Assembly (NCBI GenBank): GCA_017302435.1
Contig: JAFLDL010000013.1
Location: 31,823-95,822, forward strand
Direction of reading: 5' to 3'
DNA: 64,000 nt
Source: Candidatus Accumulibacter necessarius
Lineage (GTDB): Bacteria > Pseudomonadota > Gammaproteobacteria > Burkholderiales > Rhodocyclaceae
The translations under genes and the position numbers were made by a program. Below, piece by piece: positions 680-49,059 of the stretch. Numbering within the stretch: the stretch's first letter is position 1; each line of letters begins with the position of its first letter. The notes beneath the pieces were generated by a model. It searched no databases, had not been told where the DNA came from, and worked only from the letters and a program-made list of their open reading frames with translations.

Positions 680-2623
680 ATGAGCGATTTTGCCGGGATG
701 GAAGACCTGCTGCAGGATTTTCTGCAGGAAGCCGGTGATCTCCTGTCGGATGTCGACAACAAACTCGTTGATCTCGAGCGGAGTCCGGATGATCGTCGTC
801 TGCTGAATGACATCTTTCGCGGCTTTCACACCATCAAGGGTGGCGCCGGCTTTCTCAATGCGGGCGAGCTGGTGACGCTTTGCCACCTCACCGAGAGCCT
901 CTTCGACAAGCTGCGGAACGCCGGGATGACGCTGACGCCGGGCTTGATGGATACCATCATGGCCGCGACCCACGGTGTCCGCAACATGTTTGGTGAGATC
1001 GCGCAGGGGAGGCAGCCCAACCCGGCCTCGCCAGAAGTGATCACCAATCTGCGCGCGGCTCTGGCCGGTGGCGGCAAGATTGGACTGGCGGCCTTGACAG
1101 CCACTGGCGGGGTTGAGGGCGAGACGCTAGTGGGGCCAGATCCTTTGCCAGCCACCGCTGTGCACAGCAAGGGCCCGGACTGGCAGGCGTTACACGCGGC
1201 CGTGACCGGCCAGAGTGTCGGACCCCTGGCGGTATCGGCGCCCGTCGAGCCAGTCGCCAACGCTGGTTCGGGCAGCGCGGTGGATCTGGCCAGTCTGCAG
1301 CCGCATTTTCCGCCGGAGGGACGCCGCGTCACCGACAAGCCAGGTGCTGCAGTCAGCGGGGCACCGACCGGTCGCCGTGTCGAGGAAAGAGCTGCCGCGC
1401 GCGAGACGACAATCCGGGTTGATACGGCGAGGCTGGATCAGGTGCTCAACCTTTCCGGCGAGATCGGGCTGACGAAGAACCGCCTGACCAGCCTGCGGGC
1501 CGACATCCTTGCCGGCAGAACCGACGCGGAGACACTCCAGGCACTTGATCAGGCCGTCAGCCAGCTAGACCTGCTGGTTTCCGACTTACAGAATTCGGTG
1601 ATGAAGACGCGCATGCAGCCGATCGGCCGGCTGTTCCAGAAATACCCGCGCATTGCGCGCGATCTGGCCAGGCAATTGGGCAAGGACGTCGAGTTGGCGC
1701 TGGTGGGTGAAGAAACCGAAGTCGACAAGACGATGATCGAGGATTTGGCCGATCCGCTCATTCATCTGATTCGTAACGCCGTAGACCACGGTGTCGAGTC
1801 GGCCGAAGAACGCCGAGCGGCAGGCAAGCCGCTGAAGAGCGTTGTCCGCCTGGAAGCGCGCCAGGAGGGAGATCACATCGTGTTGATGATCGCCGACGAC
1901 GGGCGTGGGATGAGTCCAGAGCGCATTCGGGCGAAGGCGGTCGAGAAGCGCATCATCAGTGAAGAGGAAGCGAATACCCTGGATGACCGGCAGAGTCTTA
2001 ATCTGATCTTCCTGCCCGGCTTCTCGACGATGGCACAAGCCTCGGCGGTTTCGGGCCGGGGTGTCGGGATGGATGTCGTTAAAACAAACATCCAGAAGCT
2101 CAATGGTTCGATCGAGATCCGTTCCGAGGCTGGCAAGGGCTCAGTATTCGTCATTTCGCTGCCGCTGACGTTGGCGATTCTTCCCGTCCTCCTCGTCCTG
2201 CTGGGCGATCAGCCGTTTGCCCTGCCGCTCTCCATGGTTCGGGAGATCCTTCCGATCAATCAGGAGAGGATGCAGGAAGTGGGCGGCAAGGAAACCTTGG
2301 TCGTGCGCGGCGAGATCCTGCCGGTGATCGCTCTTTCGCGGCTGCTCGGCTGGCCGCAGGTGCAGCCAGCCGAGTACGGCGTCCTGATGCAGACGGCGGA
2401 GCGGAGCTTCATTCTTGCGGTCGACAACTTCGCCGGCCGCGATGATGCGGTGATCAAAGCGCTTGACGATTTTCGTCCGCGCGGGGTGGCCGGGGTGACG
2501 ACGCTGTCGAACGGGCAGATCGTGCTGATTCTGGACATGAAGGAACTGCTCGCTGATCTGACGGCACACCCCGAACGTGACCTGCGGCCGGCGCCTGCCC
2601 GGGCTCTGGAGTTCTTCGCCTGA
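680..2623 (+). CDS. cheA: Chemotaxis histidine kinase CheA
   Basis: Cytoplasmic sensor kinase that autophosphorylates and passes phosphate to CheY and CheB. The 647-residue protein starts at ATG 680, with GGAG 7 bases upstream. The longer frame from 611 has no such support. Domain order: HPt domain with the phospho-accepting His in FHTIKGGAGF (residue 50); a variable Pro/Ala-rich linker (about 140-250) in place of a clear P2 domain; dimerisation helices (TTIRVDTARLDQVLNLSGEIG); ATPase boxes LIRNAVDHG (N), DDGRGMS (G1) and GRGVGMDVV (G2); and a C-terminal CheW-like regulatory domain. It follows cheZ and is closed by a strong terminator. Confidence 0.97.
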   Translation: MSDFAGMEDLLQDFLQEAGDLLSDVDNKLVDLERSPDDRRLLNDIFRGFHTIKGGAGFLNAGELVTLCHLTESLFDKLRNAGMTLTPGLMDTIMAATHGVRNMFGEIAQGRQPNPASPEVITNLRAALAGGGKIGLAALTATGGVEGETLVGPDPLPATAVHSKGPDWQALHAAVTGQSVGPLAVSAPVEPVANAGSGSAVDLASLQPHFPPEGRRVTDKPGAAVSGAPTGRRVEERAAARETTIRVDTARLDQVLNLSGEIGLTKNRLTSLRADILAGRTDAETLQALDQAVSQLDLLVSDLQNSVMKTRMQPIGRLFQKYPRIARDLARQLGKDVELALVGEETEVDKTMIEDLADPLIHLIRNAVDHGVESAEERRAAGKPLKSVVRLEARQEGDHIVLMIADDGRGMSPERIRAKAVEKRIISEEEANTLDDRQSLNLIFLPGFSTMAQASAVSGRGVGMDVVKTNIQKLNGSIEIRSEAGKGSVFVISLPLTLAILPVLLVLLGDQPFALPLSMVREILPINQERMQEVGGKETLVVRGEILPVIALSRLLGWPQVQPAEYGVLMQTAERSFILAVDNFAGRDDAVIKALDDFRPRGVAGVTTLSNGQIVLILDMKELLADLTAHPERDLRPAPARALEFFA

Positions 2624-37154: not shown

Positions 37155-37478
37155 ATGGACAGCAAGGGTATTGATCAGATGTTGAGCATGTTGCGAGCGA
37201 GTTCGGCGGCCGCCAGCAGCCGCGCTGGCGAGGCGCCGAGTACCCCGACCGGTGCGTCAGACTTCGCCCAGGTATTGCAGACTTCGATCGCGCAGGTCAA
37301 TCAGACGCAGCAGCAGGCGGAAGCCATGGCGGCAAGTTTTGCCGCCGGCAATAGTACCGAGAACCTGCATGAGGTGATGATCGAGCTGCAAAAGGCCAAC
37401 ATCTCTTTTCAGGAAATGATCCAGGTGCGCAACAAACTCGTCTCGGCCTACCATGACGTGATGAACATGCAGGTCTGA
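37155..37478 (+). CDS. fliE: Flagellar MS-ring/rod adaptor FliE
   Basis: Joins the MS ring to the rod and is the first exported substrate. Start at ATG 37155 (MDSKGIDQMLSMLR) with GGAGG at 37145-37149. 107 residues, with conserved LHEVMIELQKANISFQEMIQVRNKLVSAYHDVMNMQV. It normally heads the fliF operon but here sits alone after fleSR, on the strand opposite to fliF, with its own sigma-54 promoter. A candidate activator site lies within its coding sequence at 37330-37344. Confidence 0.97.
   Translation: MDSKGIDQMLSMLRASSAAASSRAGEAPSTPTGASDFAQVLQTSIAQVNQTQQQAEAMAASFAAGNSTENLHEVMIELQKANISFQEMIQVRNKLVSAYHDVMNMQV
37330..37344 (+). promoter_or_regulatory. Inverted repeat CGGCAA-GTT-TTGCCG inside fliE, candidate downstream FleR enhancer
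   Basis: A perfect 6-bp inverted repeat with the same half-sites and 3-bp spacer as the one upstream of flgB, followed by a further CCGGCAA (37345-37351). It lies about 210 bp downstream of the fliE -24/-12 promoter. Downstream enhancers are known for FlrC-type activators; function here is inferred. Confidence 0.6.
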
Positions 37479-37574
37479 CATCCCGTGATTTTTTTCGCTG
37501 GCAGCCACCCTTGGCAGCCGCGCAGTTCCGACGATTGCTCCGGGAGTATTGAATTCTGACCCTGCTGCACCCAT

Positions 37575-37649
37575 AATGAACAACATGGTCGTAATTCCGG
37601 CAAACCGGAAGCGTTCTGGACGCGGGTTCGATTCCCGCCACCTCCACCA
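37575..37649 (+). ncRNA. ssrA: tmRNA acceptor piece (permuted, two-piece ssrA), 5' end approximate
   Basis: This stretch carries the 3' tRNA-like half of tmRNA ahead of the coding half. The T arm is GCGGG-TTCGATT-CCCGC (37622-37638). The 3' acceptor strand CACCTCC (37639-37645) is followed by ACCA ending at 37649. The acceptor strand pairs over 7 bp (one G-U) with GGGGGTG at 37654-37660, so the two halves form one tRNA-like domain after processing. The upstream boundary cannot be fixed by eye. Confidence 0.85.
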
Positions 37650-37653
37650 CTGG

Positions 37654-37810
37654 GGGGGTGCACTGGTTTCGACAGGGTGACAGAGGGCGAGCAGGCGACC
37701 CGAAAGGCGACGGACGTAATCCGAGCAAATCCACAAACGCCAACGATGAGCGTTTCGCACTGGCCGCTTAAGGCCTGCTGAGGACGTAGCCGTCCAATAA
37801 ACAGAATGGC
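37654..37810 (+). ncRNA. ssrA: tmRNA coding piece with tag ANDERFALAA (permuted ssrA), 3' end approximate
   Basis: Starts with the 5' acceptor strand GGGGGTG and the conserved GGTTTCGAC. Then comes the resume reading frame GCC AAC GAT GAG CGT TTC GCA CTG GCC GCT TAA (37739-37771), giving tag peptide ANDERFALAA. Only 4 bases (37650-37653) separate it from the CCA end of the acceptor piece. Nothing like a second tRNA half lies downstream before the terminator. This is the circularly permuted arrangement described for some betaproteobacteria. The RNA rescues stalled ribosomes with SmpB. Confidence 0.92.
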
Positions 37811-37813
37811 TAT

Positions 37814-37843
37814 CGGCGGGGGCTTCGGCCCCCGCCGTCATTT
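37814..37843 (+). terminator. Terminator after tmRNA
   Basis: A perfect 10-bp stem CGGCGGGGGC / GCCCCCGCCG with a TTCG loop (37814-37837), followed by a weak T-rich tail (TCATTT). Confidence 0.85.
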
Positions 37844-37903
37844 ATTCATGTGCGGAATGGCCTCGGGCAGCAATCGAACGGATCGGCGGGCCGGGGGGAT
37901 TGC

Positions 37904-47071: not shown

Positions 47072-49025
<1,954 letters not shown>

Positions 49026-49059
49026 GCCGCCTGGACTGCGCAATACCGTCTCAACCCGC

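Follow-up and report, generated by a model that had tools for sequence, protein, structure and literature searches.

The closest described relatives of the gene treated here are the circularly permuted transfer-messenger RNA (tmRNA) genes of betaproteobacteria represented by the Rfam model RF01850 (beta_tmRNA), in which the two halves stand in the same order and the same inter-piece helix, T arm, acceptor stem, tag and 3′ hairpins are found. In the Caulobacter type, which differs in belonging to another lineage model (RF01849, alpha_tmRNA), the gene is likewise permuted, and part of a review reports the two-piece RNA as functional (PMC3985003). One database, reported to contain 11,946 permuted sequences (part of PMC11915505), may already include genes of the kind discussed below; no published description of short spacers or of a missing CCA in betaproteobacterial permuted tmRNA was found in the titles and abstract openings searched, the founding lineage paper (Sharkady and Williams 2004) lying outside that scope. 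Here, we analysed the ssrA locus in a stretch of 64,000 nucleotides from Candidatus Accumulibacter necessarius (contig JAFLDL010000013.1, positions 31,823 to 95,822; hereafter, the window). Judged from its sequence, the gene belongs to an established class of RNAs, being a circularly permuted tmRNA of the betaproteobacterial type, and is ordinary for its clade; the part worth following is a dichotomy, within the host's GTDB family, between genes with a very short spacer and an encoded CCA and genes with a long spacer that mostly lack it.

Identity and form of the ssrA locus

The RF01850 model matched the window at 37535-37840 on the forward strand with 235.6 bits (E 5.8e-75; Rfam cut-off 84), and RF04321 (tmRNA_permuted) matched at 37587-37771 with 161.9 bits (E 1.9e-32; Rfam cut-off 47); RF01849 reached 55.9 bits at the locus, barely above its Rfam cut-off of 50. 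ARAGORN called a permuted tmRNA at 37557-37862 with the tag ANDERFALAA. As far as such sequence models can tell, the Rfam evidence for a permuted tmRNA is far beyond chance. The acceptor half lies upstream and the coding half downstream, and the acceptor stem closes between them (Table 1). All seven of its pairs are standard, including G3:U70 (37656:37643), and the features for alanylation, G3:U70, A73 and CCA, are all encoded in the gene; the tag ends in the degradation signal. The original prediction, of a permuted two-piece gene with only CTGG between the halves that a covariance search with permuted models would recognise, is thus borne out by RF01850, RF04321, ARAGORN and the sequence itself, and the positions that it gave for the T arm, the acceptor strands, the end of the CCA and the tag all hold on direct reading. 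It had the right locus but set its beginning at 37575, which falls within the −10 box CATAAT (37572-37577); because of the position of this box, the transcript would be expected to start near 37584.

The host genome (4.56 Mb in 88 contigs, rated 100% complete) gave 12 matches to the standard model RF00023, none above the cut-off of 47, and the best of these, at 32.6 bits, is the permuted locus itself; the remainder of the genome yielded no further tmRNA above the RF00023 or RF01849 cut-off. A standard one-piece ssrA, which had been named beforehand as the finding that would speak against the permuted gene, is therefore absent above cut-off from the host genome in silico. SmpB is encoded (PF01668, 195.4 bits; cut-off 27). 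That the locus is a silent or decaying relic, its work being done by another rescue RNA, is highly improbable, given the lack of any such tmRNA above cut-off in a genome rated complete and the intact stem, tag, promoter and G3:U70.

Spacer length and encoded CCA among relatives

A survey with RF04321 detected permuted tmRNA in 162 of the 395 genomes of the family; 150 of these genes were parsed, the other 12, mostly weaker and without listed coordinates, being left out. With the best-paired acceptor register taken in each case, the spacer measured 4 nucleotides in 37 genes, 6 in one and 23 to 51 in 112, with none of 7 to 22. G3:U70 and A73 were each present in 150/150. An earlier parse that allowed six of seven acceptor pairs had returned spacers of 2 nucleotides and one of 147; these were false and were replaced by the best-paired register, the supposed second acceptor half behind the 147-nucleotide spacer being a tRNA-Gly gene directly upstream of the tmRNA. 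In genome G762 (locus L342), a tRNA-Gly(CCC) at 418-491 ends 26 nucleotides before a long-spacer permuted tmRNA at 518-849.

One genome per species (GTDB 220) was also scanned for an encoded CCA followed by GGGGGTG within 30 bases, a pattern that is biased in requiring the CCA; this returned 53 loci: 36 permuted tmRNAs with 4 nucleotides between the halves (one, L060, incomplete at the end of its stretch and from the same genome as L083), one with 3, four with 26 to 28 and 12 loci that are not tmRNA. The four-base spacer is the norm of one of two classes and not peculiar to the host genome. The original prediction was exact as to its size; the spacer is not exceptional, however, being common to 37 of the 150 family genes (with one more of 6 nucleotides).

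The two classes also differ in the tail. The CCA is encoded in 38/38 short-spacer genes versus 12/112 long-spacer genes (Fisher p 2e-25, n=150, with kinship ignored); in the CCA-less long genes, A73 is followed by CCC, CCT, CCG or CAG. Other RNAs were inspected for comparison. In G995, a genome with a long-spacer gene, 26/26 distinct tRNAs encode CCA (30 loci examined, 55 tRNA matches), and in the host genome 31 of the 32 tRNAs found do so (30 loci examined, 44 tRNA matches), the exception being tRNA-Arg(CCT). Of the family's standard tmRNA genes, 15 were parsed, and all 15 encode ACCA; a sixteenth, L268, was left out.

Folding of the junction, from the T arm to the 5′ strand of the acceptor stem, gave a mean unpaired probability for positions 73-76 of 0.78 (0.55-1.00) in the 38 short genes, 0.34 in the 12 long genes with CCA and 0.08 in the 100 CCA-less long genes. 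In the long genes L100 and L135, for example, the spacer is predicted to extend the acceptor stem without a break. In the 100 CCA-less genes, where the spacer is predicted to be paired through the tail, the CCA would thus have to be added post-transcriptionally.

We put forward, as an evenly balanced proposal, that the family has two maturation states. The 4-nucleotide spacer would leave the encoded CCA largely free, so that one RNase P cut and trimming would suffice; the long spacer would pair through the tail, the CCA being added after a different cut; and switches between the states, as well as swaps with standard ssrA at a single ancestral site, would have occurred within genera. The link between spacer and CCA amounts to only two independent pairs on well-supported branches (four on all), too few for significance; the well-supported pairs point in the same direction in most pairings.

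Probable maturation of the two-piece RNA

We consider it likely that the locus is the single, permuted ssrA of a wastewater-type, Accumulibacter-like betaproteobacterium, very probably functional and matured by one RNase P cut and 3′ trimming; transcription start, order of cuts, trimming and function are those expected from the sequence. One precursor would be made from the sigma-70 promoter, comprising the acceptor half, CTGG, the coding half and the terminator, and in it the acceptor stem would close on an 8-nucleotide loop formed by ACCA and CTGG. An RNase P cut at 37653/37654 would alone separate the halves, a 3′ exonuclease would trim the 4-nucleotide CTGG trailer back to the encoded CCA, and the two RNAs would be held together by the acceptor stem and the inter-piece helix. 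Charged with alanine through G3:U70, the RNA would act with SmpB to rescue stalled ribosomes, adding ANDERFALAA. That the short spacer always comes with an encoded CCA, in the genes examined, points to a simple means of splitting the RNA.

Table 1. Features of the permuted ssrA locus, in window coordinates
Feature	Position	Strand	Basis
Sigma-70-like promoter, TTGAAT - 17 nt - CATAAT	37549-37577	+	1 match vs mean 0.2 in shuffles
Acceptor piece, ends in encoded ACCA	37584-37649	+	5′ end placed from the −10 box
Outer inter-piece helix strand GGTCG (partner CGACC, 37696-37700)	37587-37591	+	RF01850 and RF04321 alignments
T arm, GCGGG TTCGATT CCCGC	37622-37638	+	Sequence read, Rfam
Acceptor stem 3′ strand, CACCTCC	37639-37645	+	Sequence read, Rfam
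A73	37646	+	Sequence read
CCA tail, encoded	37647-37649	+	Sequence read
Intervening sequence CTGG, 4 nt, expected to be removed	37650-37653	+	Sequence read
Acceptor stem 5′ strand, GGGGGTG; expected 5′ end of RNase P product, 37654	37654-37660	+	Rfam, sequence; cleavage expected
Coding piece	37654-37841	+	Rfam; 3′ end placed from the terminator-like hairpin
Tag frame, ANDERFALAA + stop	37739-37771	+	Sequence read, ARAGORN
Terminator-like hairpin, 10 G-C pairs, then T-rich tail	37814-37837	+	1 match vs mean 0.7 in shuffles (statistically weak)

The promoter is shared with the relatives: the best box pair is spaced by 17 nucleotides in 35/38 short-spacer and 102/111 long-spacer genes, and lies 43-44 nucleotides upstream of the T arm in 36/38 and 106/111, respectively. 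The RF01850 consensus also includes a 3′ hairpin that matches the terminator-like hairpin.

According to the original prediction, so short a segment calls for very tight maturation. The pieces would come apart through a single RNase P cut, with just a four-base trailer remaining, and RNase P is reported to be required for the separation of the seven valine tRNAs of Escherichia coli (part of PMC9433436), so that in this respect the statement goes too far; the removal of very short acceptor-loop spacers is, on the other hand, called open for tRNA in part of PMC3978253, and to that extent the concern stands. In the same part of PMC9433436, E. coli RNase P is reported to be inhibited when the leader pairs with RCCA, whereas deletion of RCCA raised kcat/Km 3.8- to 7.9-fold; a missing CCA is therefore no handicap in itself.

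Several observations count against a direct RNase P cut in the window gene or against the fold that it presupposes. Its predicted unpaired value is the lowest of the short group, at 0.55, and its spacer ends in GG, able to pair with the CC of ACCA (16/38 short spacers end in GG); moreover, E. coli RNase P is reported to be slowest when N(−2)N(−1) is GG, its kcat/Km then being 13-fold below that with AU (part of PMC9433436). When folded without constraints, the whole precursor (37584-37841) has a lowest-energy structure (−108.9 kcal/mol, z −2.58) that lacks the T arm and in which the acceptor strand pairs with the G run in a register shifted by two bases. Such predictions ignore tertiary contacts; in the model, the competing fold is allowed by the run of seven G.

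Under a different order of events, possible but rather unlikely, the 8-nucleotide loop would first be opened by an endonuclease other than RNase P (RNase E or an enzyme resembling RNase Z), and RNase P and exonucleases would then trim at most 4 nucleotides per side. The disfavoured GG at positions −2 and −1 fits this order, part of the review cited above (PMC3985003) proposes that two-piece tmRNA is processed by both RNase P and tRNase Z, and the host genome encodes one RNase Z-like protein, albeit with a score of 109.4 bits against a cut-off of 292.95. RNase Z was also considered as a factor discriminating the spacer classes, and rejected: TIGR02651 was above cut-off in 0/34 family genomes (14 short-spacer, 16 long-spacer and 4 standard), with weak matches in 34/34 and 9/14 controls above cut-off. 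A single RNase P cut followed by trimming remains the course that we favour for the window gene.

Distribution of gene forms and comparison with known systems

A tree of 172 genes was built from 188 coding and acceptor columns, with the spacer and CCA excluded; it is unrooted and comes from a quick search, and it does not include L107, whose tag failed to match the motif used. The 15 standard genes fall on one side of a branch with a Shimodaira-Hasegawa-like approximate likelihood ratio (SH-aLRT) support of 100, so that one permutation suffices for the sampled permuted genes. This bears on the idea that the short-spacer genes arose by a separate permutation event rather than by a change of spacer in one permuted gene. 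Their plain CCA-NNNN junction does differ from the long spacers, and, with L011 excluded on account of its long branch, a tree that unites the short genes (38 in all) in one clade is not rejected (approximately unbiased test, p-AU 0.355); all 157 permuted genes, however, lie together across that branch from the standard ones (one change), and the position of the promoter is common to short and long genes, which makes a separate permutation improbable. The short and long states need four changes on the quick tree; these are few independent changes for the link between spacer and CCA, which counts against the favoured reading of the window gene. A tree in which 36 short genes were constrained to group exceeded the quick-search result by 37 log-likelihood units. 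The count of four is unsafe, because the quick search missed this better tree.

A standard tmRNA above cut-off is present in 16 of the 18 family genomes that lack a permuted match (the survey contributed 16 of the 18, the others being G339 and G578); the scan for standard tmRNA also took in three genomes with weaker permuted matches. Both forms occur within genera g225, g226, g384 and g401. A methyltransferase-HAD hydrolase pair lies directly upstream of 7/15 standard genes (L253-L258 and L264), and the same pair lies upstream of the permuted genes L046, L055, L061, L066, L086 (short) and L135 (long); because both forms adjoin this pair, they share one site there. A standard copy above cut-off was found in one of the 16 permuted genomes checked, G520 (225.6 bits), which also carries the permuted L107; a seventeenth genome checked, G746, is outside the listed permuted matches. 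As a lineage marker, for which the original prediction had recommended it, the gene is only fair and of limited use, since single genera contain both gene forms and both spacer classes, although many of the genomes are fragmented and misbinning could account for some of the mixing.

Three permuted genes stand apart. L148 (G1018) is the sole long-spacer, CCA-less tmRNA of the 18 parsed in the window's genus, in a fragmented genome, 87% complete, where misbinning is possible. L011 (G025; 1552-1742, forward strand), from another order of the class, is permuted with the spacer CTAT and an encoded CCA, and has the T loop GGCGGTA, without the usual TTCRA. L107 (G520; 1452-1812, reverse strand) has the 5-nucleotide spacer TCGAC, an encoded CCA and an unusual tag of 28 residues, GNQPSNLQVMQQFDVPTPANGDQYLNVA.

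The window ssrA comes after fliE (TIGR00205, 97.4 bits). A match to the window FliE accompanies 19/53 of the loci from the pattern scan and 17/22 of the loci labelled Accumulibacter, the five without it including L072 and L083, which are short stretches. A phage origin of the gene was considered: 17 phage records match parts of the query, and none covers 80% of it. Two long open reading frames antisense to ssrA (37257-37841 and 37297-37743, reverse strand) contain WRWRESNPRP and VAGIEPAS and are likely spurious; strings of this kind are a common misannotation on the strand opposite tRNA-like T arms. An ARAGORN tRNA-Asn of 89 nucleotides at 48944-49032 on the reverse strand lies in apparent coding sequence, has no Rfam match above cut-off and is probably false.

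Set against the described systems, the window gene departs from the RF01850 model mainly at the junction, where the model has 28 positions and the gene 4; its score of 235.6 bits compares with 248.4-335.9 bits in eight other matches from its own family. The long-spacer tmRNAs of the family, such as L110 and L135, agree with it in gene form, promoter position, acceptor stem and tag type; they differ in a spacer of 23-51 nucleotides (112 genes), in a CCA that is unencoded in 100 of them and in a tail that is mostly predicted to be paired. Close relatives that differ in one small segment thus predict different steps freeing the tmRNA ends, and the maturation of two-piece tmRNA becomes testable with matched natural substrates. 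The contrast also bears on the more general problem of how acceptor-loop spacers of only a few nucleotides are removed, which is raised in part of PMC3978253 for the permuted tRNA-Tyr of Thermofilum pendens, which has a 1-nucleotide acceptor-loop spacer, its removal being left unexplained there, and an encoded CCA like that of the window gene, but which differs in being an archaeal tRNA whose halves are religated.
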